Shown here one piece after another: positions 7,445 through 41,738 of a DNA stretch of 64,000 nucleotides (the first letter of the stretch is position 1; every line of letters starts with the position of its first letter). The notes under the pieces were generated by a model. The model was given only the letters and a program-made list of their open reading frames with translations, was not told the DNA's origin and ran no database searches. The DNA comes from Candidatus Rokuibacteriota bacterium (GTDB lineage: Bacteria > Methylomirabilota > Methylomirabilia > Rokubacteriales > CSP1-6), in contig QHRU01000047.1 in assembly GCA_003220225.1 (NCBI GenBank), forward strand, positions 1 through 64,000, given 5' to 3'. The position numbers were made by a program, and so were the translations under genes.

Positions 7445-7469
7445 CGGTGTCCTCTCCCGGTGCTCGGAC

Positions 7470-9071: not shown

Positions 9072-9156
9072 GGACGCCTCCCTGAGCGCCGCCACGGTAT
9101 ACGATCGGGCCGGAGCGTGCAAGGCACCGGGAGTAGAATCGCGCAGGAGGCCGACC
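9072..9156. promoter_or_regulatory. Divergent promoter region, ABC operon / NHL operon
   Basis: The 85 bp between the two start codons carries both ribosome binding sites. On the minus strand TTGCAC and TATACC are separated by 15 bases, a weak sigma-70-like match for the ABC operon. On the plus strand TAGAAT near 9134 is a possible -10 without a clear -35. Confidence 0.3.
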
Positions 9157-10787: not shown

Positions 10788-10794
10788 GGCGCGC

Positions 10795-11538
10795 GTGCGC
10801 GTCGTCGCGTGGAACATCCGGGCCGGCGGCGGCGTGCGCGCGGCCGGCATCGCGCGCCAGCTCGCGCGCTGGCAGCCCGATGTCGTCGCGCTCTCGGAGT
10901 TTCGCGCGACGCCGCCGAGCGCCCGGCTCGCCGCCCGGCTCGTGGCGGGCGGTCTCACCCACCAGCTCGCGACCTGCGACCCGCGCTCGACGCGGCGCAA
11001 CGCGCTGCTCGTCGCGTCGCGCTGGCCGTTGCGCCGCCTCCGCCTGAGCGCCGCCCCCGCCGAGCGCTGCCGCTGGCTGCTCGTCGCCGTCGACGCGCCG
11101 CGGCCGCTCGTCGTCGGCGCCATGCACGTGCCCAACCGCGTGAGCGGGCGCAAGTACCCGTTCCTCGACGCGGTGCTCGGCTGCGCGCGGCGCTGGCGCC
11201 TCGGGCCCGCGCTGCTGATCGGCGACACGAACTCGGGCCGCCGCGGGCTCGACGAAGAGGTGCCCGTGTTCAGCGCGCGCGAGGAGGGCTGGATCGACGC
11301 GCTCGCCGGCTGCGGCTGGGCCGACGCGTTCCGCCACCTGCGCGCCGAGGCGCGCGCCTACACGTGGTACTCGCCGAACGGGCGCAACGGCTTCCGCATC
11401 GACCAGGCGTTCGTCAACGCGCCGCTGCTGGCGCGCCTGAAAGACGCCGCCTACGTCTGGGGCGGCGCCGCCAGCCGTGCCCGCCGCGACCGCCTCAGCG
11501 ACCACGCCGCCCTCCTCGTCGATCTCGCCGAGGTCTAA
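10795..11538 (+). CDS. Endonuclease/exonuclease/phosphatase-fold protein
   Basis: A 247-residue protein starting at GTG 10795, 7 bp after the DUF3047 gene. Motifs of the EEP superfamily are present in order: VAWNIRAGGG, a catalytic Glu in VVALSEFRA, GAMHVPNR, LLIGDTNSG, FRIDQAFVN and LSDHAALLVDL. These give the metal-binding Asn/Glu/Asp and the His/Asp pair. The substrate could be DNA, RNA, a phospholipid or an inositol phosphate; sequence alone does not say. No signal peptide is evident. Confidence 0.88.
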   Translation: MRVVAWNIRAGGGVRAAGIARQLARWQPDVVALSEFRATPPSARLAARLVAGGLTHQLATCDPRSTRRNALLVASRWPLRRLRLSAAPAERCRWLLVAVDAPRPLVVGAMHVPNRVSGRKYPFLDAVLGCARRWRLGPALLIGDTNSGRRGLDEEVPVFSAREEGWIDALAGCGWADAFRHLRAEARAYTWYSPNGRNGFRIDQAFVNAPLLARLKDAAYVWGGAASRARRDRLSDHAALLVDLAEV

Positions 11539-19535: not shown

Positions 19536-19985
19536 ATGGCGCGCTTGACGATCAATGGCAAAACGCTCGAGGTCAACGTCAACCCCAGCACGCCCCTCTT
19601 GTGGGCAATCCGTGAGCAGGTCGGCCTCACCGGCACCAAGTACGGCTGCGGCATCGCGCAGTGCGGCGCCTGCACGGTGCACCTCGATGGCGCCGCGGTC
19701 CGCTCCTGCGTGATGCCCGTCGCCGCCGCCGAAGGCAAGAGGATCACCACCATCGAAGGCCTCGCCAGCGGCGGGGTTCTGCACAAGGTGCAGAAGGCCT
19801 GGCTCGACAAGGAGGTCCCGCAGTGTGGCTACTGCCAGTCGGGCATGATCATGGCGGTGGCCGCCCTCCTGAAGGACACGCCGAAGCCGAGCGACGCCGA
19901 GATCGACGCGAGGATCACCAACATCTGTCGGTGCGGAACCTTCCAGCAGGTGCGTGAGGCCATTCACGCAGCGGCGAAGGCATAG
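19536..19985 (+). CDS. Molybdenum hydroxylase small subunit, 2x[2Fe-2S] (IorA/CoxS-like)
   Basis: A 149-residue protein with a GGGAGG site before the ATG. The plant-type 2Fe-2S cysteines are C38, C43, C46 and C58 in [18 protein letters not shown] and SCV; the second cluster uses C97, C100, C131 and C133 in PQCGYCQSG and CRCGT. It passes electrons from the molybdenum site of the next gene product. No FAD subunit is encoded, as in isoquinoline 1-oxidoreductase and aldehyde dehydrogenases that donate to cytochromes. Confidence 0.95.
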
Positions 19986-19995
19986 GGGGCCGGCC

Positions 19996-22791: not shown

Positions 22792-25700
22792 CTACGTATC
22801 TCGCTCCATCTGCCCCGACCAGTACGTCATTGCCATCTCGGAGTACATCGTCGAGGCGGTGGCGCCATGCAGGTCGGCCTCGCTACGCTTGCCGGTGTGG
22901 CGATAGAGTTTGTGGAGGCCGGCATGGCAGTGGGCGACAAGAGGCCGCATGCCTAGCTCATTCGCGAGCATAAGACTCTTCGTGTAGTGCCCCGCAGCGC
23001 TGCTTGCGCCCACAGCGTCGACGCGCGCCGTGGCATCGGCGAGCACCTTGAGCGCCAAGGCCTGGTTCGCGGGTTCCTCGTGCTTCGTGGACAGCTCGAC
23101 GGCGCTCTGTGCTCGTCTCATGGCCTCTTCCGCGCGCCCCGCCAGCAGATAGGCCGCAGCCAGTCGCGTCGTGCGAACCGAGAGCCCCAACCCCATCGAG
23201 CTGATCGACACCTCCCTCTGCGTGGAGTCTTCGAGTAGCGAAACCGCCTCGGAGAGACGTCCGGAGAGAGCGTAGCTGTGACCAAGGCCCGAAAGAAGAT
23301 TCGCGTCGCTGACATTGTGGGGTCGAAGGAGCTCGATGCCACGTTCGAATGCGCGCAAGGCCAGATCGAGATTGCCCTGTTCCAGGTGGACGCCCCCGAG
23401 CGCACTGTAAGACTCGATCAATGTATGAAGATGATCTACCTCTTCGGCGATCTGCAAGCCCTCTTCTGCGTACCTCAGGGCCTCAGCAAAACGACCGAGA
23501 TGGCACAGCGACAGCCCGAGCCATGCCCGCGGCCAAGCGGCAAAGAAGCGAGGTGGTAAGGCCGGCCGATTCGCGATCCTTGCGCCATCGGCGCTGAGGG
23601 CCTCGATCGTCTGCAGGAAGATCGCGATGGCTTGGTCGAACTCGCCGATTGCGAAGTGGGCCTGAGCGAGACGGTACCTTGCTTCGATTTGCAGGCCGAG
23701 CTGATCGAGTTCGGTGGCAATCTCGACCGCTTGTCGACTCGCTTCGAGCGCGCGCCGATGGTCGCCGACATTGCGAAGCCGCGCCCCCATGTCGGCGAGG
23801 ACGAGTCCCAGCCGGCGTCGATCGCCGAGTTCTCGCGCGATGACCTCGGCTTCGCGCAGGTATTTAAGGATCCCGTCGTATTGACCCAACGGAGCCAGGG
23901 CGATTCGCGAGTCGAGGCGGAGGTCGATGGCCTGGGCCTTGGCCTCGCGAGTCTCGGGCAGATGAGCGAGGGCGCGAAAGGCGGCCTCGAACGACGTGAG
24001 AGCCTCATGGTATGCGGAGCGCGCCGCCTGCCGACCGACGGCATCGCGAAGATAGCCGACGGCCTTGTCCCATACTTCTCCGCGAAGCGCATGATCGGCG
24101 AGCCGTTCGACGTGCTCTGCGCGCCGGTCCGCGTAGAGGCGCTCGATGGCTTCGACAATGCGAGCGTGGAGGAGGCGGCGGCGGTCGTGGAGCAGTCCGC
24201 CGTACGCGACCTCGTGCGTCAGCGCGTGCTTGAACGTGTATTCGGCCTCCGGGAAAAGCTTCGCCTCGTGGATGAACTCCGCGGCTTGCAGCTGATCGAG
24301 TCCGCGACGGAGGGCTTCATCCGGTAGCTCGGCGATCTCTTGGAGGATCGCGACGGGCACGTCTTTGCCTACGACGGAAGCGGTCTGCAGGAGGCGTTTG
24401 TCCTCCGGCGAGAGACGATCGATGCGCGCTGCCAGCACCGCTTGGACCGTCGGGGGCACCTGGATCGTGAGGATCGGTTGCGCCAGCCGATACCGTCCGC
24501 GCTCCCCGATTAGTAGGTTGGTCTCCACCAGGGTCCGAACGGTCTCTTCCAGGAAGAACGGGTTTCCGCGATCGATGAGGCTCTGCTTGAGAGGCCGGAG
24601 GGCCGGATCGGCGCCGAGAAGCGCGTCCAGCAGCTCCCCGGTGCCGTCCACGGGCAGCGTGTTCAGCCGCATCTGCGTGTAATACGTCTTATTGTTCCAG
24701 GTGTGCTGGTACTCGGGACGGTAGTTCGCGAGCAAGAGCAGGCGCGCCGAACCTAGGCCCTCCACGAGGCCGTCAAGGAACGCCTGGGACTCGGCGTCGA
24801 TCCAGTGAAGGTCCTCGCAGATCAGGAGGACGGGTTGCTCGCGGGCTTCACGCAGGAGGAGTCGTTTCGTCGCATCGAGTGTACGCCGGCGACGCTCGGC
24901 AGGGTCGAGCGCTTGCCACTCGACAGCGTCGACCGGTACGTCGAGCAAGGTGAGCAATGCCGGCAGCGCTGGCCTCAGGGAATCGTCGAGAGCGAGCAGC
25001 TTACCCGTCACCTTTTCACGAATCTCGCGACGGTCGTCGCCATCGTGAACCTTGAAGTAAGCTCTCAGCATATCGACCATCGGCAGATAGCTCTTCGCCC
25101 TGCCATACGAGACCGCCGCCATTTCCACAATTAACCAGCCGCGCAAACGATAAGAATGGGTAAATTCGTAAGCCAGGCGCGACTTGCCGACGCCGGCTTC
25201 CCCCACGATCGCCGCCACCTGCCCGTGACCGTTCACTGCAAGCTGTTGCGCGCGGTGGAGTTGCTCGAGCTCGGCTTCGCGGCCGATGAATGGGGTGAGG
25301 CCCCGCCGGACGGCCGCTTGCAGCCGTGTTCGCACCGTACCTGCGCCGGTGGCCTCATAGACTTCGACAGGATCCGTGACGCCCCTGACGGGCACAGGTC
25401 CGAGCGGCTTGACCTCGATAAATCCTTCCACCGGGCGAAGGGTGTCACTGGTGAGGCGAATGGTTCCGGGGGTCGCAAGTTGCTCCATGCGCGCCGCGAC
25501 ATGGGTCGTTTGCCCGATCGCCGTGTAGTCCATGCGCAGATCGCTGCCCACGGATCGAACCACGACTTCGCCGGAGTTCAGTCCAACGCGGATCTGGACT
25601 TCGATACCGTACGCGCGCCGCGCCCCTTCCGCGTACCTCTTCACGGAGTCCTGCATTCGGAGCGCGGCGTAGCACGCCCTGAGGGCATGGTCCTCATGCG

Positions 25701-26151
25701 CGATCGGCGCACCGAATAGCGCCATGATCCCGTCGCCCATGACTTGATTGACAGTGCCTTCGAAGCGATGGACGGCTTCCATCATCAGCTCGAGGACGGG
25801 ATCGAGGATCTTGCGCGCCTCCTCAGGGTCACGATCAGCGAGCAGTTCCATCGAGCCCTTGAGATCCGCAAAGAGGATGGTGACCTGCTTGCGCTCACCT
25901 TCGAGGGCGGCTCTCGAGGTAAGGATCCGCTCCGCGAGATGTCTGGGAGTGTAGGAATCAGGCGTCGTGAAGGAGGACGAGGCTACGCCGCTGCGACCTT
26001 CTGCGAGTGATTGGCCACACCGACGGCAGAACTTCGCAGCCGGCCGATTGCGTTCGCCACACGCACGACACGCCGACTCGAGCCGCACCCCACACTCGTC
26101 ACAAAAGGCTGCCTCAACTGTGTTCTCGTACTGGCACTGCGAGCACTTCAT
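22792..26151 (-). CDS. Zinc-ribbon, class III cyclase-like, AAA/STAND ATPase and TPR signalling protein
   Basis: A 1119-residue protein; I use the ATG at 26151 rather than the TTG at 26178. Order: double zinc ribbon (CSQCQYEN, CDECG, CRACGERN, CRRCG); class III nucleotide cyclase domain (about 90-270) with metal-site Asp in ILFADLKGS and VMGDGIMALFG; AAA/NB-ARC-like domain with P-loop GEAGVGKSR and LLICEDLHWID; C-terminal TPRs. The expected VNLAAR motif is THVAAR with Gln before it, so cyclase activity is doubtful. Such proteins are large sensory or transcription-linked ATPases. It lies 8 kb from the cNMP-binding iron-sulfur protein. Confidence 0.92.
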   Translation of the reverse strand: MKCSQCQYENTVEAAFCDECGVRLESACRACGERNRPAAKFCRRCGQSLAEGRSGVASSSFTTPDSYTPRHLAERILTSRAALEGERKQVTILFADLKGSMELLADRDPEEARKILDPVLELMMEAVHRFEGTVNQVMGDGIMALFGAPIAHEDHALRACYAALRMQDSVKRYAEGARRAYGIEVQIRVGLNSGEVVVRSVGSDLRMDYTAIGQTTHVAARMEQLATPGTIRLTSDTLRPVEGFIEVKPLGPVPVRGVTDPVEVYEATGAGTVRTRLQAAVRRGLTPFIGREAELEQLHRAQQLAVNGHGQVAAIVGEAGVGKSRLAYEFTHSYRLRGWLIVEMAAVSYGRAKSYLPMVDMLRAYFKVHDGDDRREIREKVTGKLLALDDSLRPALPALLTLLDVPVDAVEWQALDPAERRRRTLDATKRLLLREAREQPVLLICEDLHWIDAESQAFLDGLVEGLGSARLLLLANYRPEYQHTWNNKTYYTQMRLNTLPVDGTGELLDALLGADPALRPLKQSLIDRGNPFFLEETVRTLVETNLLIGERGRYRLAQPILTIQVPPTVQAVLAARIDRLSPEDKRLLQTASVVGKDVPVAILQEIAELPDEALRRGLDQLQAAEFIHEAKLFPEAEYTFKHALTHEVAYGGLLHDRRRLLHARIVEAIERLYADRRAEHVERLADHALRGEVWDKAVGYLRDAVGRQAARSAYHEALTSFEAAFRALAHLPETREAKAQAIDLRLDSRIALAPLGQYDGILKYLREAEVIARELGDRRRLGLVLADMGARLRNVGDHRRALEASRQAVEIATELDQLGLQIEARYRLAQAHFAIGEFDQAIAIFLQTIEALSADGARIANRPALPPRFFAAWPRAWLGLSLCHLGRFAEALRYAEEGLQIAEEVDHLHTLIESYSALGGVHLEQGNLDLALRAFERGIELLRPHNVSDANLLSGLGHSYALSGRLSEAVSLLEDSTQREVSISSMGLGLSVRTTRLAAAYLLAGRAEEAMRRAQSAVELSTKHEEPANQALALKVLADATARVDAVGASSAAGHYTKSLMLANELGMRPLVAHCHAGLHKLYRHTGKRSEADLHGATASTMYSEMAMTYWSGQMERDT

Positions 26152-26323
26152 CCCCAGGCAGCGTAGAAGGGACCTCAAGCGTGGTCAAGAGCCTGGAGAG
26201 AGAAGAACTACGCGCGCGGTAGGCGGATCGATACCATCCAGGTCTCCACGGCGATCACGCCACCGCAGCTCAAGCGCGCGGTGTCGTTCTACGAGGCAAA
26301 GGCGACGAAGATGTTGAGCAACG

Positions 26324-28063: not shown

Positions 28064-29656
28064 CTACCTGGGAGGGCTTCCGGCCGACCGCGAGCCCTTG
28101 GTGAGCTGCGGCACGGCGAACGGGCCGCTTGGATCGCGCTCCTTCGCCTTGTCGTGGTAGATGTGGCACTCCACGCAGCCGGCCCTCGCCCCTCCGCCCT
28201 GCCGATGACACTCCCGGCACACGGTGATCGAGGGAAGCAGCACGTCCGTGGTGTCCGTGCTCGCGGTCGCCTTGTGGCACTCGGTGCAGGCGAGCGGACG
28301 GTGCGCCCCGTGATCGAACACGCTGTGCGGCAGCCACCTCGCGGGGATCGCGGTCGGCGCCACGCGAGGCAGCCGATCGGGCGCGGAGCTGAGGGTGTGA
28401 CAGAACTCGCACTTCTGCTTGAACATCACGCGCTCGGCGCCCTGGAGCTGCGCCGACGCCCACTCCAGCGCCGATGGGCTCGGGGCCCGCGGCGACGGCG
28501 TCTCCTTCTCGGCGTCGGCGGGCCGGCCCAGGCGACCTCCGCGCGGCCGGTCCGTGGTCTCTGGCTCGGCCTCGACGGACCGGCCCAGGCGGCCTCCACG
28601 CGGTCGATCCGCCGGCGCCTCCGGCGCGCTCTCGCTCGGTGGGCGACCGCCGCGCGCGGCGGACGCGGATGCCGCCCTGACGAGCTCGAGGTCCTGGCAC
28701 TGCTTCTTCAGCTTGTCCGCGCCCGCGCCGGCCGGCCCGGGTTGCGCGAGCGCCTGGCACTGCTCGAACACCTCGATGAAGAGCGTGCGGAGAAACGCGT
28801 GGACGATCTCCGGGGTGTCGTGCGGGGCGACCACGTCGGGCAGCCGCGCGTCGACGTCCAATGGATGGCAGCCCGGCCCACAGTGCCTGATGTACGAGAT
28901 CGGCTGCATCGAGGCGCGCGACGCCTCGGGCTGATGACAGAAGGCGCAGGCGAGCTGGAGCCCTCCCGCCTTTTCGAGGATGCGAAACGGGCCCTTCAGC
29001 GTCCGCAGCTCGTCGAGCCCCTTGAGTCCGACCTTGAGGTGCTTTTGATGGTTCAGCTTGACCTGGGCGAGGTCCTTGAGCTCCGCGCTGCGGTTCAGAG
29101 GCACGCGGCGCACGACGTTCTGCTCCTTGACGGCGACCGCGAATTCCGGATGGCTGGACCCGAAATCACGGATCCGCGGGGCGACCGTCGGCGGCGTCCG
29201 GCTCATCCGCGTCAGATCGGCGTGACATTGGCTGCACTGTGCGTCGGGCAGCGCGGCGAGCACGACGTCCCCCTTGTGCTCGACGTGACAGCGCGCGCAC
29301 CGGGGATCGAACGCCTGCGACTCGTGATGGACCGGCGCATCGTGGCAGGCCAGACAGGCGCGATCGCTGACCCGCACGAAGAAGGCCGAGGTCGGAGTCC
29401 CGCCCGGCGCCGCGGCGCGGCCCGGCCCATGACAGTCCGCGCACTGCGTCCCGAACATGGCGTGCCCGGTGGACAGCGGGCCGCTCGTGTAGATGCGCTG
29501 ATCTCCCCGCGCGGCGTACGCCACGAGCCACGCCGCCGCCACCACCGGGACGGTGATCGAGAGAATGAGCCTCCAGCGGCGGAAGGGATGCAGGCGCTTG
29601 AAGTACTCCGGCTCGATGCGCTTGGCGCGCGTCTTGGTGCTGTAGCGTGGCTCCAT
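28064..29656 (-). CDS. Membrane-anchored decahaem-type cytochrome c
   Basis: A 530-residue protein with an N-terminal membrane anchor (LILSITVPVVAAAWLVAYAA) and a periplasmic body. Nine CxxCH motifs are visible (CADCH, CLACH, CARCH, CSQCH, CAFCH, CEFCH, CTECH, CRECH, CVECH) plus one CGPGCH with three intervening residues, so up to ten haems. A disordered linker between haems six and seven repeats DRPRGGRLGR twice. It starts 12 bp after the diheme cytochrome b gene and most likely takes electrons from it on the periplasmic side. Confidence 0.93.
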   Translation of the reverse strand: MEPRYSTKTRAKRIEPEYFKRLHPFRRWRLILSITVPVVAAAWLVAYAARGDQRIYTSGPLSTGHAMFGTQCADCHGPGRAAAPGGTPTSAFFVRVSDRACLACHDAPVHHESQAFDPRCARCHVEHKGDVVLAALPDAQCSQCHADLTRMSRTPPTVAPRIRDFGSSHPEFAVAVKEQNVVRRVPLNRSAELKDLAQVKLNHQKHLKVGLKGLDELRTLKGPFRILEKAGGLQLACAFCHQPEASRASMQPISYIRHCGPGCHPLDVDARLPDVVAPHDTPEIVHAFLRTLFIEVFEQCQALAQPGPAGAGADKLKKQCQDLELVRAASASAARGGRPPSESAPEAPADRPRGGRLGRSVEAEPETTDRPRGGRLGRPADAEKETPSPRAPSPSALEWASAQLQGAERVMFKQKCEFCHTLSSAPDRLPRVAPTAIPARWLPHSVFDHGAHRPLACTECHKATASTDTTDVLLPSITVCRECHRQGGGARAGCVECHIYHDKAKERDPSGPFAVPQLTKGSRSAGSPPR

Positions 29657-29668
29657 CACGCGGCCGCC

Positions 29669-30601
29669 TCAGTACCGGAGGGTCACGATGGCGTGAACGA
29701 CCGAGAGCAGCAGCAGGGCCATCGACAGCGGGACGTGGACCAGCAGCCAGCCGTGCAGCCAGTGATGCAGCCGCACCTGGACGGCGAGCTGCCGCCGCTC
29801 CTCGCAGATGGCCTGCAGGTCGTCGACGACCTCGCCGAGCGCCGCCGGCAGCTCCATTCTCAGGTACAGGAAGACGGCTTCGCCGAGCCGCGGCGGAAAC
29901 AGGCGACCGGTCCGAGGCAGCCTCAGGGCCAGAAACGGTCGGATGTCGGTCATGTAAGCGTCCCTGAGCACGGCGCTCTCCGGCAGCGCCGTCGTCCACG
30001 TCGGTGCGGCGCGCAGCAGGGGTCGGGCCAGCACCTGCCCGCGTGAGAGCCCGCCGCCCCCGCGCCGTTCGGACGCGCGGACGGGGTCCGCCACGGGCAA
30101 CGGCCCGGCCACCGCGGTCACCAGCGCGTCGGCCTCCGAGCGGAGCTGGGCCACGATCGAGTCGATTTGCTCGTACACCGTCTCGAGCGGCAACTGCATC
30201 AGCATCATTCGCGGCACGATGTGCTGCAGGACGACACCGTAGATCCCGCTGAGGACGACCAGGGTGAAGAGCCCCATGAGCGTGAACGTCAGCGGGCCGC
30301 CCCACCGGAAACCGCTGTGGAACAGGATCAGCACGTAGCTGAGCAGGCCCAGCCAGAGATGCCCTTTCATCCATGTCGTGGCGCGTCCGATGCGCCAGGT
30401 CGGAACCTTGCGCCGGGCCCCGAGCAGGCCCGCATACAGCATGAGCGCGAGGCCCGCCGCGCCCAAGATCAGGCCGGGCCAGCTGCCGCCGCTGGGCCCG
30501 TGCAGCGCGCGGTGGACGTAGACGAGATACGCGGCCAGGGCCAGGAGGGCGGTGATGACCGTTCCGACGATCCAGCGGCGGTGATCGGCGCCGATGAGCA
30601 T
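29669..30601 (-). CDS. Diheme cytochrome b-like membrane protein
   Basis: A 310-residue inner-membrane protein. The ATG at 30601 follows the upstream stop by 8 bp; the longer open frame beyond it is antisense noise. About five helices are predicted. Haem-ligand pairs with cytochrome b spacing are H81/H95 in the segment GHLWLGLLSYVLILFHSG, and H289/H303 in VHVPLSMALLLLSVVH. A soluble insert of about 150 residues separates the two parts. It is suited to carry electrons across the membrane between the iron-sulfur protein and the decahaem cytochrome. Confidence 0.85.
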   Translation of the reverse strand: MLIGADHRRWIVGTVITALLALAAYLVYVHRALHGPSGGSWPGLILGAAGLALMLYAGLLGARRKVPTWRIGRATTWMKGHLWLGLLSYVLILFHSGFRWGGPLTFTLMGLFTLVVLSGIYGVVLQHIVPRMMLMQLPLETVYEQIDSIVAQLRSEADALVTAVAGPLPVADPVRASERRGGGGLSRGQVLARPLLRAAPTWTTALPESAVLRDAYMTDIRPFLALRLPRTGRLFPPRLGEAVFLYLRMELPAALGEVVDDLQAICEERRQLAVQVRLHHWLHGWLLVHVPLSMALLLLSVVHAIVTLRY

Positions 30602-30609
30602 GAACGGGG

Positions 30610-32766
30610 TCAGGAGCCGGGCGGCTTCGAGGGGCCGAACTTCTCGGCGAAGAACGTCAACGGCTCGACGCGGATGGCGGCGTCGTGCGGGCACGCGTAC
30701 ACGCACGCCGGTTCCTCGAGCTCCCGACTCAGATCGCAGGTCGTCGCCTTCTCGCGGACGACGGCCTTCTTGCGGCCCGGCTGCAGCTCGTCGTCGGCGG
30801 CGACCGTGAAGGCGTGCATGTTGATGTTGCCGTAGGGACAGCTCTCGGCACACAGGCCGCAGCCGATGCACCAATCCTCGATGAGGATCTCGAGCGAGTC
30901 GCGACGGCGGATCGAGCCCACCGGGCAGCCGATCATGCAGAGCGGATCGCGGCACGAGCGGCACGACGTCGCCACCAGGTACTTGTCGAAGCGCAGGCCG
31001 TCGCGGACCAGGCGGGTGACGCCCTCGTGCGCGTCCGCGCAGGCGCGGACGCAGAGATCGCAGCGGGTGCAGCGCTCGAGATCGATGAGGAGCAGGTTCT
31101 GCGCCTCCATCAGCCCCTGCGTGAGAAAGTCCGCGATCGGCACCGTGCTGACCTGCTGGTGACGCTCCTTGTCCTGGGCCAGGAGGCCGGCGGCGACCTC
31201 CTGCAGCTTGGCCCCGATCTCGGGAAAGCGCTCCAGCATCGCGTGGAAGTCCTCGCCGCGGATCTGGATGACCTCCACGTGATCGAGCGCGCTGCAGGTC
31301 GCCGTGCGAACGCCGGCGCCCAGCAGCCCGATCTCCCCGAAGTAACTCCCCCGGGCGAGGTAGCGCAGCACCATCTCGCCGCCGGGGAACGCCTGCGTGA
31401 CCTTGACGAAGCCGATGCGGACCAGGAAGAAGCTGTCGGCCGGCTCGCTCTGCCGGCAAATCACCTGCCCCGGCTCGTAGCGGACCAGCTCCACGCGGTT
31501 GCGGAGGTGGTCGAGGAAGTCGTCGGTGAGACCCGCGAACATGGGCACGCTGCGGAGATGCGTGACGAGGGCGCGTTCCCGGTATCGCCGGTCGAGGTCG
31601 GCCTTGAAGCGCTTGTTCTTCTGCAGCATGTGGAGGACGTTTCGGAGCATCTCGAGGACGACCGTCTCTTCCACCGCGCGCACCGTCGCCGAGCGCGGGT
31701 AGAAGCTCATGCACGTCATCTCGCCGAAGATCTCGCCGGCGCCGAAGCGCGCCACCGGATTGCCGTAGTCGAGGTCGATGGGGCCGTCGATCGGGATGAA
31801 CCGCGGCTCCTCCTCGCGCTGGTCCTCTTTGTTGCTCACGAGCCGGCTGAGCCGGCGCAAGAAGTTCGCGACGCCCACGCGTCCCGTCCGGCGGCCACTC
31901 TTCACGTGGGCCATCGGCGTGGAGATCGACACCTCGACCTGGCCGCTCAGCACGTAGAAGGCGGTGGACCCGTGCTCGCCCTCCCGGCAGATGATCTCGC
32001 CCGGCCGGAAGCGCCGCCGGACGATCGAGCCTTTGTTGAGGGCGAGGAACGTTCCCGAGCTGCCCGCGAAGATCGGAAGCCTCAGCAGCTCCTCGGGGGA
32101 CAGCAGGTCTCCCTGCGGCAGCCGGACGTCGAGCACGCTCTTGTTGGTGAGCGCTCCCGTCGGACACGAGACCATGCACTCGCCGCAGCCCACGCACGTG
32201 GAGTGCCCCATGGGGACGTCGGCGTCGAACGCGATGGCCGCCCCCGACCCTTTGCCCATCCGGCCGATGACGAAGTTCTGCTTGACCTCGCTGCAGGCGC
32301 GGATGCACCGGTCGCACAGGATGCAGGCGGAATGGTCCACCTTGATGATCGGCGACGAGTCGTCGATGCCCCGGGCGCTGAGCCGCGGCGTGAATCGCGA
32401 CGTCTGCAGTCCGGCGCGACGCGCCTGAGCCTCCAGCTCACAGTCCCCCGTGGCCGTTTGCCGCAGGCAGGGACTGGGATGGTCGGCCAGCAGCAGCTCG
32501 TAGAGCATGCGTCGGGCCCGCTGCACGCGCTCGGTGTTCGTGCGCACGTCCATGCCCGGCTCGACGGTCCTCACGCAGGAGGCGGCGAGCACGCGACCGC
32601 CGGTCACCTCGACCGTGCACACGCGACAGACGCCGACGGGTCCCTGGTGCTGGGCGTGACAGAGGGTCGGGATGTCGACGCCGATGCTCCGAGCGGCGTC
32701 GAACACGGTCGTCCCTGCGGCGACCTCGACCGGCGTCCCATCGATGGAGAGATTGACCACGCTCAT
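30610..32766 (-). CDS. Iron-sulfur protein with two cyclic-nucleotide-binding domains
   Basis: A 718-residue cytoplasmic protein; ATG 32766 lies 2 bp after the NuoEF stop. Order: HoxU/NuoG-like 2Fe-2S domain (C36, C47, C50, C64); an incomplete His-Cys site (H96, C100, C109); two 4Fe-4S sites (C148-C158, C191-C201); two cNMP-binding domains at about 230-390 and 408-530, each keeping the phosphate-cassette Glu and Arg (FGEM...PRSAT, FGEI...VRTAT); then four DmsB/HybA-type 4Fe-4S sites (C566-C576, C602-C614, C633-C643, C677-C692). It probably wires NuoF to the cytochrome b and may be tuned by cAMP or cGMP. Confidence 0.92.
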   Translation of the reverse strand: MSVVNLSIDGTPVEVAAGTTVFDAARSIGVDIPTLCHAQHQGPVGVCRVCTVEVTGGRVLAASCVRTVEPGMDVRTNTERVQRARRMLYELLLADHPSPCLRQTATGDCELEAQARRAGLQTSRFTPRLSARGIDDSSPIIKVDHSACILCDRCIRACSEVKQNFVIGRMGKGSGAAIAFDADVPMGHSTCVGCGECMVSCPTGALTNKSVLDVRLPQGDLLSPEELLRLPIFAGSSGTFLALNKGSIVRRRFRPGEIICREGEHGSTAFYVLSGQVEVSISTPMAHVKSGRRTGRVGVANFLRRLSRLVSNKEDQREEEPRFIPIDGPIDLDYGNPVARFGAGEIFGEMTCMSFYPRSATVRAVEETVVLEMLRNVLHMLQKNKRFKADLDRRYRERALVTHLRSVPMFAGLTDDFLDHLRNRVELVRYEPGQVICRQSEPADSFFLVRIGFVKVTQAFPGGEMVLRYLARGSYFGEIGLLGAGVRTATCSALDHVEVIQIRGEDFHAMLERFPEIGAKLQEVAAGLLAQDKERHQQVSTVPIADFLTQGLMEAQNLLLIDLERCTRCDLCVRACADAHEGVTRLVRDGLRFDKYLVATSCRSCRDPLCMIGCPVGSIRRRDSLEILIEDWCIGCGLCAESCPYGNINMHAFTVAADDELQPGRKKAVVREKATTCDLSRELEEPACVYACPHDAAIRVEPLTFFAEKFGPSKPPGS

Positions 32767-32768: not shown

Positions 32769-34448
32769 TCACGCCATCGGGCACACGCCGGACGGACATC
32801 GCTGCCGGGCGACGTGTACCTCGATCTCCTCGGGGAAGTGCGTGATGACCGACTTGATGGGCGCCGGAGCCACCTGGCCCAGGCCACAGATGGACGTGAG
32901 GGCCATCGCCTCCGACAGCTGGTCGATCGTCTCGAGGTGCTCGGCGTGGCCGCGGCCGTGAGCGATCTCGCTCAGGATGTCGACGAGCTTCGCCGAGCCG
33001 ACACGGCAGGGCACGCACTTGCCGCACGACTCATTCTTGAAAAACCGCACGGCATTGAGCGCCATGTCGAGCATGCAGGTGCCGTCGGCGCAGACGACGA
33101 TGGCCCCGGACCCCAGCATCGACCCCGCCTGCTGGAGCGATTTGAAGTCCAGCGGCACGTCGACCATCGACGCGGGGAGATAGCCCGACGACGCACCCGA
33201 CGGGGCGAACGCCTTGAGGGCCCGTCCATCGAGCACGCCGCCGGCGCGCTCGACGATCACCTCACGCGCCCGGGTGCCCATCGCGATCTCGTACACGCCC
33301 GGGCGCTCGACGTGACCGCTCACGCCCACGAACTTCGGGCCCGCCGCGCCGCCCCGCCCCAGACGTTTGAACGCCTCGGCGCCGGTCGTCAGGATCAGCG
33401 GCACCAGGGCGAACGTCTCCACGTTGTTGATGACCGTGGGCTTTTGCCAGAGCCCGTGCGTGCCCGGGAACGGCGGCTTGTTGCGCGGCTCCGCGCGCTT
33501 GCCCTCGAGCGCCTCCAGCAGCGCCGATTCCTCACCGCAGATGTAGCCGCCGGGGCTGACGAAGAGGCTCACGTCGAAGGGCACGCGACCGCCGCGCGCG
33601 CCGGCACCGAGGAGGCCGCGCCGTCGGCAGTCGTCGATCTCGCGCTGCAGCACCGCCGCCTGGGCTTCGTACTCGTGGCGGATGTAGATGATCCCGGTGC
33701 GGGCGCCCGTCACCATGCCCGCCAGGATCATGCCCTCGAGCACGAGGTGGGGAGCGTGCTCCATGAGGAAGCGGTCCTTGATCGTACCCGGCTCGCTCTC
33801 GTCCGCGTTGCAGACGACGTACTTCTCCGGGCCCGGGGCGGCCCGGACGATCTCCCACTTGACCCCGGTCGGAAAGCCCGCGCCCCCGAGCCCGCGAAGC
33901 TCGCTGGCCTTGAGGGTGGTGAGCACGCCTTCGATGTCGCGACTGGCCAGGAGGCCGTGCAGCGCCGCGTAGTGGACGCCCGCCGCGTAGGGGTGGATCC
34001 CGAGCGGGGTGGAAGCGCGCGTGCTCTCCATATGCGGCAGCGCGGCGCCCGCCGCCGCCGCGCCGACCAGATCCGTCAGCCGGGCCGGCGTCAGCCCCGG
34101 GACGATGACGTCGTTGATGGAGCCGGCCGGCGCCCGATCGCACTGTCCGAGACACGACACCGGGCGCACGACGACGCCGGAGAGCTCGCGGCCGGCGAGG
34201 TGGGCTTCCAGCGAGCGGCTGAGCTCGTCGGCGCCGCGGAGATGGCACGACATGTCGGCGCAGACGCGCACGTCGACCGCGGGTGGCGCCGTGAGCCGGA
34301 AGTGCGGATAGAAGCTCGCCACTCCGTGGACGTCGTAGAGCGGAATTCGCGCGCGCTCGGAGAGGGCCCGGAGGGCGGCGGCGGGAAGGTACCCGTGCTC
34401 CCGCTGGATCGCGCGAAGCTCGTCGATCAGCATCGCTCTCTCGGACAT
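32769..34448 (-). CDS. NuoE-NuoF fusion, NADH-dehydrogenase-type flavoprotein
   Basis: A 559-residue protein; ATG 34448 with GAGGG upstream is preferred to the frame to 34508. Residues 1-135 are a NuoE-like thioredoxin-fold 2Fe-2S domain (C63, C68, C99, C103). The rest is NuoF-like: FMN/NADH loops LRGLGGAGFPTG and NADESEPGTIKDRF, GGYICGEESALLEALEG, and a 4Fe-4S site (C475, C478, C481 in ESCGKCVPCR, plus C521 in SICGLG). It oxidises or reduces NAD(P)H with electrons passing to the next gene product. No membrane Nuo subunit or hydrogenase accompanies it. Confidence 0.94.
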   Translation of the reverse strand: MSERAMLIDELRAIQREHGYLPAAALRALSERARIPLYDVHGVASFYPHFRLTAPPAVDVRVCADMSCHLRGADELSRSLEAHLAGRELSGVVVRPVSCLGQCDRAPAGSINDVIVPGLTPARLTDLVGAAAAGAALPHMESTRASTPLGIHPYAAGVHYAALHGLLASRDIEGVLTTLKASELRGLGGAGFPTGVKWEIVRAAPGPEKYVVCNADESEPGTIKDRFLMEHAPHLVLEGMILAGMVTGARTGIIYIRHEYEAQAAVLQREIDDCRRRGLLGAGARGGRVPFDVSLFVSPGGYICGEESALLEALEGKRAEPRNKPPFPGTHGLWQKPTVINNVETFALVPLILTTGAEAFKRLGRGGAAGPKFVGVSGHVERPGVYEIAMGTRAREVIVERAGGVLDGRALKAFAPSGASSGYLPASMVDVPLDFKSLQQAGSMLGSGAIVVCADGTCMLDMALNAVRFFKNESCGKCVPCRVGSAKLVDILSEIAHGRGHAEHLETIDQLSEAMALTSICGLGQVAPAPIKSVITHFPEEIEVHVARQRCPSGVCPMA

Positions 34449-34640
34449 GGCCCTCACCGGCAGATTTCGAATTCGGTGCGCGAAACCTACGCTTGGTGAC
34501 CGGGCCATGTCAACGACTGCCCACAGGCGGGGCGGCCGGACGGCCGATAACCTTTACCGGTCCGCGAACTCGGGATAGGATTGCGGCCTCACGGCACCGG
34601 GTTGGGCACCGCACCGCCGCACAGGACAGGGGACCGAGGA
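34449..34640. promoter_or_regulatory. Divergent promoter region between the two electron-transfer operons
   Basis: The 192 bp between the NuoEF and outer-membrane-barrel starts must hold the promoters of both operons. On the plus strand TTTACC at 34553-34558 and TAGGAT at 34576-34581 are separated by 17 bp, a fair sigma-70-type match (four of six bases each). No clear minus-strand pair was found. Shared control of the two operons is likely from this geometry. Confidence 0.45.
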
Positions 34641-36542
34641 ATGGTCGCGCTGATTGTCGTGGCCCTGGCCGCGCTTCCCGCCGTCTCCGGCCAGCCGACG
34701 GTGACCGCGCCCGCGTGGGCGACGCCAGCGCCCGTGCTCCTGGCCCAGCGCCCGCGGCGTCCCGAGCCCGATTCGCCGGAAGAGACGCCGCCCCCACCGC
34801 AGCCGCCGCCCACGACGACGCCACCACCGGCTCCGCCGAAGTCCGAGGACAAGCCACCCGGCTTCACCGGTCCGAGCTCCAGTCGGCCGGTTCCGATCCA
34901 GACCAGCCCCGACTTCGTGCCGATCCTCGACCGCTGGCGCCTGGGATTCCCCGACTGGAACCGCTACGAGCGGCCGCTGGAGGCGCCGTACGTGCGAGGG
35001 CGCTGGTGGGATCCGTACAACCAGAACGTCCTCAAGGGCGATTATCCGATCTTCGGACAGCGCTACTTCCTGAGCGTGTCGGCCATCAGCGACAGCCTGC
35101 TGGAGCTGCGGCGGATCCCGCTGCCGAGCAACGCCAGCGCGGCCGAGCCCGGAAAAGCGGAGTTCTTCGGCACCGGCGATCAGATCTTCGTCAACCAGAA
35201 CTTCATCCTGTCGTTCAGTTTCTTCAAGGGCGACACGGCCTTCAAGCCGCGGGACTTTGAAATCCGCGTGACGCCCGTGTTCAACCTGAACTACCTCGAC
35301 GTCCGGGAGACGGGCATCGTAAACGTCGACGTGCGCGAGGGCACCACGCGCTTCGACACCTTCAAGAGCCTCCAGGAGCTGTTCGTCGAGTACCACCTCG
35401 GCGATCTCAGCCCGCACTACGACTTCATTTCCGCCCGCGCGGGGATCCAGCCCTTCACCAGCGACTTTCGCAGCTTCATCTTCAGCGACGACCAGCTCGG
35501 CTTCCGCCTGTTCGGCAACCTCGGGTCGAATCGGTATCAGTACAACGCCGTCTACTTCCGTCCCCTGGAGAAGGACACGAACAGCGGACTGAACCGGCTG
35601 CTCGACACGCGCTCGCAGCACCTCGGCATCGTCAACTTCTTCGTTCAGGACTTCCTCACGCCGGGCTACACCCTGATGTTCAACCTGCACGTCCTCAACG
35701 ACAGCGGCGACAAGCACTTCGACACCAACGGGTTCCTGATCCGACCCGCCCCGGTGGGCACGCTCGCCCGAAAGGTCGTGGATGCGGTCTGGCTCGGGTG
35801 GAACGGCGACGGCCACATCGGTCCCATCAACGTGACGCACGCGTTCTACCAGGTCGTGGGGCGCGAGAACCGCAATCCGATCAATGATCGGGCCCAGGAC
35901 ATCAGCGCCCAGATGGCGGCGCTCGAAGTGTCCACGGACCTGGACTGGCTCCGGCCGCGCGCCTCCTTCTTCTGGGCCTCCGGCGACTCGAAGCCCGCCG
36001 ACCGCGTCGCGCGGGGGTTCGACACGATCTTCGACAATCCGAATTTCGCCGGCGGCGGCTTCAGCTACTGGGTGCGCCAGGGGCTGCCTCTCACCGGCAC
36101 CGGGCTCGAGCTGGTGGGCCGCAACAGCCTCGTCCCCAGCCTCCGCAGCAGCAAGATCGAGGGCCAGCCCAACTTCGTCAATCCCGGCCTCTTCCTGTTC
36201 AACGTGGGTGCCGACGTCGAGCTCACGCCGAAGCTCAAGGCGATCCTGAACGTGAACTATCTGCGCTTCCATCACACCGCGGTCCTCGAGCGCCTGCTCT
36301 TTCAGCCGAACATCCGGGAGGACATCGGCATCGACTACAGCCTCGGTCTCCGCTGGCGGCCGTTCCTGATCGACAACGTGGTGATCACGGGCGGGGTGGG
36401 CGTGCTCCAGGCGCTCGGCGGTCTGCGCGACGTGTACACGAACGAGACGTTCACGTTCACGGCCCGGGGGCTCGAGAAGACCACCGGATTCCCCTACGAC
36501 CTGCTGTACTCGGCCTTTCTCTCCATGACCTTCACGTTCTGA
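34641..36542 (+). CDS. Outer-membrane beta-barrel protein of the electron conduit
   Basis: A 633-residue exported protein. ATG 34641 opens a signal peptide ([17 protein letters not shown]), followed by a Pro-rich linker (residues about 45-80). The body shows alternating strands ([60 protein letters not shown]) and ends in [10 protein letters not shown] with terminal Phe, the outer-membrane insertion signal. It heads an operon with two multihaem cytochromes, so a porin that sheathes a cytochrome, as in porin-cytochrome conduits, is the likely role. Confidence 0.85.
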
Positions 36543-36558
36543 GCAAGATCCACCACGC

Positions 36559-39500
36559 ATGAGCGCGTCGTCCAGACGAAGGCTGTGGCGCTCCTTCGCG
36601 GGGGTGGCGGTGGTCGCCGCCGCCACGCTGTCGACCCTCGCGCTCGCCGGCTCCGGCGAGCTCGCGCAGCGGATCCGGCGGCCGTCCGAGACGCCCGAGG
36701 TGCCGCCCGTGCCCTCCCCAGCGCCGGAACCCGCGACGTCGGAGGGGCCCGACCTGAGTCGGCAGAGTCAGGCGGACGTCGACCGGAAGAACGTCGGCTG
36801 CGTGACCTGTCACACGGCGACCGACGCTCCCACCATGCACACGGCCACCACGGTGAAGCTCGCGTGCGTGGACTGCCACGGCGGGCGCGGCGATGTCGCC
36901 CGTGCGGCCGCGACGCAGCCCGGGTCGACCGCCTACGACGACGTCAAGAAGAAGGCGCACGTCCAGCCGCGCCTCGCCGAGCTCGCGAAGAGCGCCGCCA
37001 ACCCGCGCGCGTACGTCCGCCTCGCTCGGGAGAGCGCCGACTACGTCCGCTTCGTCAACCCCGGCGACCTGCGAGCGGCGCGGTTGGCGTGCGGCCAGAG
37101 CCGCTGCCACGCGGCCGAGGTGGCGCAGGTCGAGAAGAGCATGATGACCACCGGGCCCATGCTCTGGGCGGCGGCCCTCTACAACAACGGGAGCTTCCCG
37201 CTGAAGCGCCCCCTCTTCGGCGAGAGCTACACGGAGAGCGGCGAGCCGCGCCGGCTCTACACGACGCCGCCGCCGACGCTCGAGGAGACCGTCGGCAACG
37301 GCGTGCTGCCCTGGCTCGAGCCGCTGCCGCGCTTCGAGATCGGGCAGCCGAGCAACGTGCTGCGCATCTTCGAGCGCGGCCAGCAGCGGCCGCTCGAGCT
37401 CGGGGTGCCGAACGTCGACGAGGCGCCGGGCCGGCCCGCCAACCGTCTGAGCGCGCGGGGGCTCGGCACGCTGAACCGCATCGACCCCGTGTGGCTGAAT
37501 CTGCAGCGCACCCGGCTGTTCGATCCGGCCCTGTCGTTCCCGGGCACCAACGATCATCCCGGCGACTACCGCTCGAGCGGCTGCACGGGCTGTCACGTCA
37601 TCTACGCGAACGACCGGTCGCCGGTGCACTCCGCCGCCTACGCGCAGTACGGCAACCGCGGACGCAGCGCCACCGCCGATCCGACGATCGCACGGAACGA
37701 GTCGGGCCATCCCATCAAGCACGTGTTGACGACGTCGATCCCCTCGAGCCAGTGCGTCGTGTGCCACCACCATCCGGGCACCACCGTCACGAACAGCTTT
37801 CTCGGCTACACGTGGTGGGACAACGAGACCGATGGCACGCTGATGTATCCGGGCGAGGAGCCCAGGCTCACGGCGGAGCAGATCGACACCATCGAGCGGT
37901 CGAACCCCGACGGAGCGGCCGTGCGAGGCCGATGGTCCGATCCCGAATTCCTCGCCAACGTCACGGAGCTGAATCCCAGGCTCACGCGGACGCAGTTCGC
38001 CGACTTCCACGGCCACGGCTGGGTCTTCCGCGCCGTCTTCAAGCAGGACCGCAAAGGGCAGCTGCTCGACGGCGCCGGCGCCGCGGTGCAGCCGGACGAC
38101 CCCGAGCGATTCAAGAAGGCCGTGCACCTGCGCGACATCCACCTCGAGAAGGGGATGCACTGCGTCGACTGTCATTTCAAGCAGGACGTGCACGGCAACG
38201 GCAAGCTGTACGGCGAGACGCGCGCGGCCATCGAGATCACCTGCACGACGTGTCACGGCACGATCCAGCAGCGGGCGACCCTCAAGACGTCGGGGCCCGC
38301 CGCGCCCGCCGGCGGGACGGATCTGTCGTCCCTGCGCACGCCGTTCGGCCAGCGCCGGTTCCAGTGGCTCGGCGAGGCGCTGACCCAGCGGTCGATGGTC
38401 ACCGAAGGCCTGCAGTGGACGGTGACGCAGGTGGCGGACACGATCGATCCCGCCTCGCCGTGGGCACGGGCCAATCCCGAGCGCAGTGCGAAGTCCCGCC
38501 TCGCCAAGACGCTCCGCCGCGACGGTGCCGCCTGGGGCACCGCCGTTGCCAAGGACGGCGAGGCCCGTGAGCTCGCGCACGCCGACGCGCGCATGACGTG
38601 TCAGAGCTGCCACACATCCTGGGTCACCAGCTGCTTCGGCTGCCACCTGCCGATGCGAGCCAACCGCCGCAAGCCGATGCTCCACTTCGAGGGCGACACG
38701 CAGCGCAACTGGACCTCGTACAACTTCCAGACGATCCGCGACGACGTCTTCATGCTGGCCATCGATCCGACCGTGATGAAGCATCGAGTCTCCCCGGCGC
38801 GCTCCTCGTGCGCGGTGCTGGTGGGCTCGCAGAATCAGAACCGCGAGTGGGTCTACTCACAGCAGCAGACGGTCTCCGCCGAGGGCTTCGCCGGTCACGC
38901 CTTCAGCACGTTCGTGCCGCACACCGTGCGGGCCACCGAGACGAAGTCCTGCACCGACTGCCACGTCTCGGCCCGCAACGACAACAACGCGTGGATGGCG
39001 CAGGTCTTGATGCTGGGGACGAACTTCTATAACTTCCTCGGCCGGTACATCTACGTGGCCGAGGGGACGCGGGGGCTCGAAGCGATCGCCGTCACCGAGC
39101 GCGACGAGCCGCAGGCCGTGCTCGGAAGCGAGCTCCACCGGCTGGCGTATCCCACGAACTATGCGCAGCACGAGCATCGCGGGCGGCGTTTGGGCGAGGC
39201 GCTGCACCACCGCGGGCGGGACGTGCTGGACGTCTTTGGCCGCGACGAGGTGCTGAGCATCCAGCTCCGCGGGGAATACCTCTACACCGCCAACGGCCCC
39301 GGAGGGTTCCGCGCCTACGATGTCGCCCAGATCGATCAAAAGGGATTCTCCGAGCGCCTGGTCACGGCGCCCGTCTCGCCGCTGGGACAGCGGCTCTACG
39401 TGAAGACCCGGTTCGCCACCGCCGTGGCCTCGCCGACGACGCTCGCCGTCGACCCGACGCGGACGCAGCGGCCCGAGAACCAGGAGCAGCGCATCCACCC

Positions 39501-40485
39501 CCTGTACGCCTACCTGTATGTGACGGACCGGTTCGAGGGCCTGGTCGTGATCGGCAACCCCGCGGACAGCCCGCATCGGGCGGGCGTCGCGACCCTGCTC
39601 GACGGCGATCCGGCGAACAACTTTCTGGAGCGGGCCCTCGCCTTCAACCCGGGCGGCATCCTGAACGGCGCCGTCAATCTGACGGTCGCCGGCACCCATG
39701 CCTACATCCTGGCCGACCGCGGCCTCGTGATCGTGAGCCTCGACGATCCGCTGAAGCCGAAGGTGGTCGCCACCGTGGGCGCGCCCCACATCGTCGGCGC
39801 GCGCGCGGTGGCCGTGCAGTTCCGCTACGCCTTCGTCACCGACGCCGAGGGGCTGAAAGTCGTCGACGTCACCTCGCCCGATCGTCCGCGACCGGTGCCG
39901 GACGCCGCCCTGCGGCTGGCCGACGCGCGCGGGCTCTATCTCGTGCGCACCCACGCCTACGTGGCGGCCGGCCGGCAGGGGCTGGTCATCGTCGACATCG
40001 AGCATCCGGAGAAGCCGGTGGTGGACCAGGTCTACGACGCGGGCGGCGTGCTCGACGACGTCCACGACGTGAAGGTGGGCATGACCAACGCCAGCCTGTT
40101 CGCCTACGTCGCCGACGGCCGGAATGGACTCCGCGTGCTCCAGCTCACGTCACCGAGCGAGACGCCGACCTATCTCGGGTTCAGCCCGCGGCCGAAGCCG
40201 CGGCTCATCGCCACCGCGAAGACGCGCGGCCCCGCGCTGGCGGTCTCGAAGGGCACGGACCGTGACCGCGCCGTCGACGAGGCGGGCAATCAGATCGCCG
40301 TGTTCAACCGCCTCGGCTCCCGGCCCTTCAACCGGGCGGAGATGGAGCGGCTCTATCTGCGGGACGGCCGCGTCTACACCGTCAGCGACGAGCCTCCGTC
40401 GCCCCCGAGGGCGCCGGCGCCGAAGAAGGAAGAGCCGCAGGAGCAGGCGCCGCCACCGCGGCTGCGCCGAGGAGGCCGTGAATGA
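36559..40485 (+). CDS. Giant multihaem cytochrome c fused to LVIVD-type beta-propeller
   Basis: A 1308-residue exported protein with signal peptide ([20 protein letters not shown]). The first 820 residues carry nine CxxCH motifs (first at C81-H85 and C103-H107) and one CGQSRCH with four intervening residues, like an unusual cytochrome c554-type haem site. The C-terminal 480 residues repeat LVIVD-like blades: [94 protein letters not shown]. It ends in a Pro/Arg-rich tail. It probably carries electrons to or beyond the outer membrane. Confidence 0.92.
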
Positions 40486-41738
40486 GAAGAGGTGGAGTCA
40501 TGCTGCGTCGGGGAGCGTATGCCGCGCTCGCGGTGCTGATCCTGGGATGTCTGCTGTCGGGCGTGCGGCCGGGCAGCGTGACGACGACGCCGCGCGCCCA
40601 CGCGCAGGCGCCCACCGAGCTGAAGTACACGGGCGCCGCCTCGTGCGCCGCCTCCAACTGCCACGGGAGCGCGAAGCCGAAGCCCGACTATCCGAAGCTC
40701 AACGAGAACATCGTGTGGGCCCAGAAGGACCAGCACGCCAAGGCCTACGCGACGCTCACCAACGAAAAGCTGAAGTCGGGCGTGAGCCCCTCCAAGATCG
40801 CCCGCGAGCTGAAGCTCACCAAGGCGGAGGCGAGCGAGCGCTGCCTGACGTGCCATGCCGTGAACGTGCCGGCCGCGGCACGCGGGCCGAAGTTCGACAT
40901 CACCGACGGCGTGTTCTGCGATGCCTGCCATGGCCCGGCGGAAAAGTGGCTGGAGGCGCACGCCGAGAAGGGCTGGACCCACGAGCAATCGGTGAAGCTC
41001 GGGATGTACGACACCAAGAACTTCCTCCTGCGCTCGGAGAAGTGCGTGTCCTGCCACCTGAGCATCGATCAGGAGCTGGTGGCGGCCGGCCATCCCGATC
41101 TCCTGGCCTTCGAGCTGGCCACGTTCAGCGCCAACATGCCGCCGCACTGGCGGGACAAGGGGACCTGGGCCGACACGAAGGTCTGGGCCACCGGGCAGGC
41201 GATCCTGCTGCGCGAGGCCGCCAAGCAGCTGGCCAGCCGCGCCAAGAGCGGCGTCTCGGCGAAGCTGCTCGACGACGCTCTGCGCAAGGTTCAGGGACAC
41301 GCGGCGGTCGTCAAGCACGTCCTGGCTCCGGAGGCGGCAAAGGCGCTCGGGCAGGACGTGGCCGCCCTCGTCGATCTCGTGACGAAGGGCGACCGCGCCG
41401 GCGTCACCGCGGGCGCGTCAAAGATCGCGGCGGCGATGAGCCAGGAGGCGCCGCGACTGGCCGGCCGCGACTGGGACCAGGCCGGCACCCAGAAGCTCAT
41501 GCAGAGCCTCACGGGGGACGCCGACGCCATCGCCGCCGCCGGGGTCCGCGCGGCGGAGCAGGCGGCGATGGCGCTCGATCGGCTCTACAACATCTACTCC
41601 AAGGCGCCGGGCAACAAGCCGGACAAGGCGGCCGGTGAGGCACTGGACCGCCTGTTCGCGGCGATCGAGAACCCGGCCAAGTACGACGCCAAGCAGTTCG
41701 CGGCCGAGGTCAAGGCCTTCGAGAAGAACCTCAAGTAG
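40482..41738 (+). CDS. Tetrahaem cytochrome c554-like protein
   Basis: A 418-residue exported protein. Its ATG overlaps the previous stop (ATGA) and has AGGAGG six bases upstream; an inner ATG at 40500 is also possible. After a signal peptide ([14 protein letters not shown]) come four haem sites: CAASNCH with four intervening residues, CLTCH, CDACH and CVSCH, the order expected for cytochrome c554 domains. The C-terminal half is a long Ala/Lys-rich helical region without haems. It is likely a periplasmic shuttle between the inner and outer parts of the conduit. Confidence 0.92.

Follow-up and report, generated by a model that had tools for sequence, protein, structure and literature searches.

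A modular iron-sulfur protein with two cyclic-nucleotide-binding domains and its predicted place in an NADH-to-periplasm electron outlet

Introduction

Why would an iron-sulfur electron carrier hold two cyclic-nucleotide-binding domains within its own chain, and might a cyclic nucleotide (cNMP) then act on the electrons that pass through it? This question is raised by a gene in a stretch of 64,000 nucleotides from Candidatus Rokuibacteriota bacterium (contig QHRU01000047.1, positions 1 to 64,000; the window in the following). To our knowledge, no electron-transport complex that is gated by a second messenger and built on such a fused architecture has been described. No description of it was found in the open-access journal literature searched, an absence that is not proof of novelty.

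Results

One chain joins two groups of iron-sulfur sites and two cNMP-binding domains

The gene is an open reading frame of 718 codons that translates without an internal stop. Its ATG lies 2 nt past the stop of the upstream NuoE-NuoF fusion gene (NuoEF), and its own stop lies 8 nt before the next ATG. In the encoded protein, a [2Fe-2S] domain is followed by two [4Fe-4S] sites, two cNMP-binding domains (CNB1 and CNB2) and a DmsB-type module of four [4Fe-4S] sites:

30610..32766 (-), iron-sulfur protein of 718 residues with tandem cNMP-binding domains (ORF translation, Pfam, 69-row alignment)
32533..32757 (-), HoxU/NuoG-type [2Fe-2S] domain, residues 4-78; C36, C47, C50 and C64 invariant in 69 members
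32440..32481 (-), remnant of an N5-type His-Cys site, residues 96-109 (H96, C100, Q103, C109; alignment and HydA1 match)
32164..32325 (-), two [4Fe-4S] motifs, residues 148-201; 8/8 Cys invariant among 69 members
31618..32031 (-), CNB1, residues 246-383, with an insert of ~52 residues and the cassette FGEMTCMSFYPRSA (347-360); E349 and R358 invariant
31228..31530 (-), CNB2, residues 413-513, with the cassette FGEIGLLGAGVRTA (476-489); E478 in 69/69, R487 in 65/69
30667..31095 (-), DmsB/HycB-type module with four [4Fe-4S] motifs, residues 558-700 (Pfam, phmmer, alignment)

Pfam placed Fer2_4 at residues 4-78, pairs of Fer4 at 148-205, three stretches of cNMP_binding behind them and a further Fer4 set at the C-terminus. 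Taken together with NCBIfam, the layout reads HoxU/NuoG/HydA-like at 1-212, cNMP at 246-383 and 413-513, and DmsB/HycB/HydN-like at 558-700. Comparison with the PDB by phmmer matched residues 5-215 to formate dehydrogenase and HydA1, and the C-terminus to subunits of the HycB/NrfC type. Among the NCBIfam matches listed, none exceeded its own cut-off (the HoxU model reached 177.9 bits, under its cut-off of 333), and that listing therefore gives the protein no separate family name. The architecture itself is certain: the initial annotation of iron-sulfur groups and two cNMP domains on a single chain of 718 residues was borne out by the Pfam and NCBIfam matches.

An AlphaFold2 model built from the 69-row alignment is of moderate quality (pLDDT 72.5, pTM 0.59), so that its inter-domain geometry and inter-cluster distances are unusable. 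Its closest Foldseek matches were PKG CNB-A/B with cGMP and HydA1/formate dehydrogenase, and predicted helices are visible after CNB1 (385-406) and after CNB2 (515-540).

One genome scan yielded 218 relatives from Rokubacteria, Acidobacteria, Planctomycetes and others, and 69 members, 51-86% identical, were aligned. The best 80 of the 218 are nearly all full length and stem from Rokubacteria, Acidobacteria, Planctomycetes, Methylomirabilota and a few other MAGs. Within the lineage of the window the distribution is patchy, the gene occurring in 7 of 60 related genomes, that of the window included. One related genome carries a second, more distant paralogue (L096, G018:C167:16738-17718), whose frame, judged by eye, departs from the four-cluster homology into adjacent superoxide dismutase-like sequence and looks frameshifted or truncated. 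A match in Nonomuraea gerenzanensis (L104, 5001-5642; 53% identity) covers only the HoxU-like N-terminus and lies where the record has no annotation.

The phosphate cassettes are kept across the family

The cNMP-binding domain (PF00027) was recognized at 131.3 bits against a cut-off of 27.5; the Pfam match to CNB1 is split by the insert of ~52 residues, and that to CNB2 spans 428-513. The claim that both domains keep the cassette Glu and Arg intact holds across the 69 aligned members, at frequencies far above chance (E349, R358 and E478 in 69/69 each; R487 in 65/69), with the small correction that the Glu of CNB1 is residue 349 and not 348. Invariant within the CNB1 cassette are F347, G348, E349, M350, C352, P357, R358, S359 and A360. 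These are 9 of the 16 invariant residues of CNB1, so that within this domain the cassette stands out as the most invariant segment among the 69 members. The conserved cassettes make binding of a cyclic nucleotide by the CNB pair likely. In an Acidobacteria subclade (L066, L067, L070), Tyr replaces Arg487 of CNB2, and the flanks of L067 and L070 yielded no cyclase; here CNB2 may be losing its ligand.

The CNB1 insert itself (31759-31923, residues about 282-336), which precedes the cassette, is of near-constant length and includes a conserved IPID-x-P-x-DL stretch.

Two iron-sulfur sites deviate from the canonical pattern

The site formed by H96, C100 and C109 had been labelled N3-type, and its missing Cys had been taken to fit a rebuilt electron wire. 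In the phmmer comparison with the PDB, it aligns to the H-x3-C-x2-C-x5-C site of HydA1, which we take to be N5 of NuoG in complex I, N3 presumably belonging to NuoF; the N3 label was therefore wrong. The third ligand position, 103, is Cys in 0/69 members, leaving the N5-type His-Cys3 cluster incomplete family-wide. Eight Planctomycetes among the 69 have none of the cysteines of the site, and MeFDH1, the NAD-dependent formate dehydrogenase that is the best PDB match, likewise lacks it. Because of these three observations, the N5-type site looks like a dispensable branch, with no special adaptation in this protein. On the first and the last of them, the rebuilt-wire reading was rejected.

The four DmsB-type motifs were found as annotated, but a substitution that leaves the last of them incomplete had been overlooked. 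Residue 680 (30727-30729), in the last C-terminal motif, is Ser in 6/6 members of the Rokubacteria/NC10 type and Cys in the remaining 63/63, so that the module of the window protein holds 15 Cys and Ser680, against 16 Cys in most relatives. By analogy to NarH and DmsB, residue 680 is presumably a ligand of the second cluster of the module. Since Ser is able to ligate Fe, the potential of this cluster may be changed, or it may be of the [3Fe-4S] type.

The neighbouring genes suggest a route out of the cell

The gene is embedded in an operon whose order, NuoEF, iron-sulfur/CNB protein, cytochrome b and multiheme cytochrome, is conserved among relatives. The genes accompanying it in the window are:

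32769..34508 (-), NuoE-NuoF fusion, a HoxF-like NADH:FMN diaphorase with FMN, SLBB and 4Fe-4S domains (Pfam)
29669..30601 (-), predicted diheme cytochrome b of 310 residues; two H-x13-H pairs, H81/H95 and H289/H303, conserved
28064..29659 (-), multiheme cytochrome c with a membrane anchor; CxxCH motifs number 9 here and 10 in most relatives
34581..36542 (+), porin-like protein predicted to form an outer-membrane beta-barrel, encoded divergently to the operon, start codon uncertain; 41% identical to its Sphingobium counterpart
36559..40485 (+), LVIVD-repeat multiheme cytochrome of 1308 residues with 9 CxxCH; 48% identical to its Sphingobium counterpart, with a partial match to ExtM
40482..41738 (+), cytochrome c554-like multiheme protein (Pfam)
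41750..43714 (+), HbpS-like protein (Pfam), near the cluster in many relatives too

Within the best 80 of the 218 relatives, 76 loci have NuoEF immediately upstream in the same orientation, the other 4 being contigs of less than 12 kb, and a homologue of the cytochrome b adjoins the iron-sulfur/CNB gene in 70. Near the EF-CNB genes of several Planctomycetes (L068, L069 and L082-L085), neither a cytochrome b nor a multiheme gene was found.

The membrane protein encoded at 29669-30601 belongs to no Pfam or NCBIfam family and gave no PDB fold match at E<=0.001. It is predicted to form a helical bundle (pLDDT 86), and a Sphingobium homologue of 26% identity has a weak, sub-threshold match to cytochrome b561. 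We read it, from its sequence, as a putative diheme cytochrome b, perhaps of an undescribed family. A search with this protein found no plasmid homologue at 1e-6. The porin-like protein matches no Pfam or NCBIfam model. A predicted beta-barrel gene adjoins multiheme genes in the window (34581-41738) and, within the fetched flanks, at 22 of the best 80 of the 218 loci.

Taken as a whole, these genes appear to provide a path that starts at NADH, crosses the inner membrane and reaches cytochromes of the periplasm and the outer membrane, and their products likely form an electron-exit complex. Elsewhere in the window, the ORF at 19954-22176 appears by eye to encode a twin-arginine-exported molybdopterin subunit of the xanthine dehydrogenase type.

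The core occurs in three forms

Besides the form seen in the window, HoxU-CNB-CNB-DmsB with a NuoEF gene, a phylum-level search in Planctomycetes revealed stand-alone CNB-CNB-DmsB cores. Four of these (L137-L140) have a cytochrome b and a multiheme gene nearby; in L137-L139 the c554, LVIVD and porin-like genes are present as well. The surroundings of all four yielded no NuoEF homologue, and near another stand-alone core (L136), neither cytochrome b nor multiheme gene was found. The third form, WP_231568103.1, is encoded on plasmid pMSHV of Sphingobium herbicidovorans and has an FAD/NAD(P)H Pyr_redox domain joined to the N-terminus of the core. Behind it, this operon encodes a homologue of the cytochrome b, then a multiheme cytochrome of the c3 type and a protein of the phosphodiesterase class, and alongside lie genes for porin-like (41%), LVIVD cytochrome (48%), c554-like and HbpS-like proteins. 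Across 11 divergent stand-alone or FAD-fused sequences, cassette Glu and Arg are present in CNB1 of 11 and in CNB2 of 9.

The input module is exchangeable; the CNB pair travels with the four-cluster module and usually with the exit. Because the input swaps while the CNB pair stays with the output half, this arrangement argues for CNB domains that would control the shared part of the electron path. The sensor pair had been proposed to act as a hinge between the two cluster groups; as a general rule, a role as hinge only was rejected because the stand-alone cores have neither the N-terminal cluster group nor NuoEF and keep the exit genes.

At locus L146, a two-partner-secretion gene and an ORF of 6.3 kb (2797-10950) lie beside the Sphingobium multiheme cluster, and a second two-partner-secretion gene is found at 30410-32089.

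Nucleotidyl cyclases and a phosphodiesterase-class gene near the cluster

A candidate source of a ligand is encoded 1.9 kb beyond the operon of the window:

22792..26178 (-), nucleotidyl cyclase of class III that also carries zinc ribbon, AAA and TPR domains (Pfam)

At least one class III cyclase is present in 29/29 operon-bearing genomes examined, with 21 in the genome of the window. Cyclase genes occur in the fetched flanks of the window and of 16 of the best 80 of the 218 loci, in at least five architectures: CHASE2-cyclase of two kinds, FHA-GAF-cyclase, cyclase-FHA and GAF-cyclase, next to the zinc-ribbon-cyclase-AAA-TPR of the window. Where cyclase counts are known, 6 of 29 genomes have a flanking cyclase against 0.48 expected by density (P about 6e-6 assuming independent loci, though the loci are related and hence not independent). 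The flanking cyclase is the sole class III cyclase found in the genome at L028, L053, L059 and L060; at L036 the sole one lies just outside the fetched flank, as placed by manual mapping. Across the tree, 10 changes of the linkage label were counted (with L036 labelled from that mapping), and the linkage is therefore not one inherited neighbourhood.

Most flanking cyclases keep Lys and Thr, which we take to mark the adenylate cyclase type, together with Asn and Arg, presumably the active-site residues. The cyclase of the window has Gln for the usual adenine-specifying Lys and His for the transition-state Asn, and for this reason the linkage is weaker for the window itself than elsewhere. It is a possible ligand source for the CNB pair; as a proven partner it is not supported, given 21 cyclases in the genome and its divergent catalytic residues. 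The flanks of the sister locus L009 yielded no cyclase. A cyclase within 20 kb is not a universal rule either, as L014, L015 and L021 have one about 55-80 kb away on the same contig, identified as such by its length, and in further genomes there is no match between the cyclase-bearing contigs and that of the operon.

For the product of the last gene of the Sphingobium operon, WP_037469323.1, the nearest solved relative is the cyclic nucleotide phosphodiesterase Rv0805. This product also gives matches to SpdA and CpdA that stay under their cut-offs. The same cluster has a CHASE2-cyclase, WP_037469508.1, at a distance of about 23 kb.

Discussion

On balance, we lean towards the view that the operon encodes an NADH-to-periplasm outlet complex with the 718-residue protein as its central iron-sulfur subunit, and that a cNMP, most likely cAMP, gates the electron wire. 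Electrons from cytoplasmic NADH would enter through the FMN and iron-sulfur clusters of the NuoEF-like partner, pass to the 718-residue subunit and leave it through the diheme cytochrome b for the membrane-anchored periplasmic cytochrome of 9-10 hemes, from where they would travel onward, probably via periplasmic and outer-membrane multiheme proteins. Both cNMP domains would bind a cyclic nucleotide, with cAMP the most likely one, and the ligand would shift the C-terminal helices of the CNB pair. Because the predicted helix after CNB2 (about 515-540) leads into the DmsB-type cluster module, the ligand might thereby decide whether the wire makes electron-transfer contact with its donor or with cytochrome b. 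We infer the direction of flow, cAMP as the ligand, the helix movement and the gating, the outward direction because it is downhill in redox and membrane potential and because the operon has no pumping subunit. As outward flow from NADH would pump no protons and run downhill in both respects, a switch on it would be physiologically sensible.

The gene set by itself leaves the direction unfixed, and diaphorase/Fe-S modules are reversible in relatives such as HoxFU. Periplasmic or extracellular electrons might therefore reduce NAD+ under cNMP control. We consider this very unlikely on energetic grounds, since flow from outside to NAD+ would run uphill against the membrane potential, and the operon includes no coupling subunit. 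The CNB pair could also be a dimerisation or docking scaffold, in which cNMP binding is possible and electron flow is independent of the ligand. Many CNB proteins dimerise via the helix after the domain, the moderate model of the 718-residue protein is compatible with such a role, and one subclade has lost R487 from CNB2 and retained the gene. For a pure scaffold, however, cassette Glu and Arg would be superfluous, yet no patch of CNB1 is more invariant than its cassette; the linkage to cyclases, moreover, recurs. A scaffold role thus appears unlikely.

The nearest precedent is HoxI of Cupriavidus necator, a CNB-fold protein that is encoded with HoxFU and for which binding of NADP has been suggested (PMC12319191). 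In the role proposed for HoxI, the CNB domains could have NAD(P)H or some other nucleotide as their ligand and serve to activate the diaphorase. This reading is weakened because the cassette of HoxI, GELGFIDQTPHSLS, has His in place of Arg, unlike the present family, which keeps Arg in both domains. Against it also stand the stand-alone cores, which keep the cassette with no NuoEF gene nearby, and the linked cyclases and phosphodiesterase-class gene, and we regard it as quite improbable. Gating by a cyclic nucleotide is a plausible reading of these genes and the best available explanation, helped by cassettes that are kept family-wide, by the varied cyclases adjoining the cluster and by the phosphodiesterase-class gene in the Sphingobium operon.

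Several known systems share parts of this design. The HoxFU(I) diaphorase of the NAD-reducing [NiFe] hydrogenase (Cupriavidus necator SH) has in common with it the HoxF-like NuoEF partner, the HoxU-like N-terminus and a CNB-fold component. HoxI, however, is a separate, single CNB protein, whereas the window protein carries two intact CNB domains fused within the Fe-S chain, and the window system has no hydrogenase but a DmsB-type module and membrane and multiheme partners. NADH-linked subunits of the HydA1/MeFDH1 type align with residues 5-215, and MeFDH1 shares the absence of the N5-type site; unlike them, the window protein has no H-cluster or Mo/W active site and possesses the CNB pair and the four-cluster module. 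With the four-[4Fe-4S] subunits DmsB, NrfC, HybA and HycB, the C-terminal module shares motif order and spacing, but here it is fused behind the CNB domains, and its partner is an unusual predicted cytochrome b with no Pfam or PDB fold match. The tandem CNB fold and the phosphate cassette are common to the PKA/PKG regulatory subunits and CRP, where the effector is a kinase or a DNA-binding domain; in the window protein it is a redox module. Porin-cytochrome systems (Mtr, Omb, Ext) likewise combine genes for an inner-membrane cytochrome, a periplasmic multiheme protein, a beta-barrel and large multiheme proteins. In contrast to these, the porin-like protein of the window matches no Pfam porin family, and NADH is predicted from the genes to enter directly.

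Cyclic AMP and extracellular respiration are already tied in Shewanella, where cAMP is reported to control the cytochrome genes at the transcriptional level via CRP (PMC4417206). We propose more tentatively, as a possibility somewhat short of probable, that the family represents a widespread class of respiratory outlet, in which a CNB-CNB-4x[4Fe-4S] core with swappable NAD(P)H input and a cytochrome b/multiheme exit would be switched directly and post-translationally by a cNMP that a locally encoded cyclase would produce and a locally encoded phosphodiesterase would degrade.

The cultured Sphingobium herbicidovorans, with its FAD-type input and the phosphodiesterase-class gene in the operon, renders the question directly testable. 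Control of respiration by cyclic nucleotides is known to act via transcription; a sensor placed in the wire would, if true, mean direct, fast and ligand-controlled electron flow, and would provide a recognisable route from NADH to the outside for common, poorly understood soil phyla.
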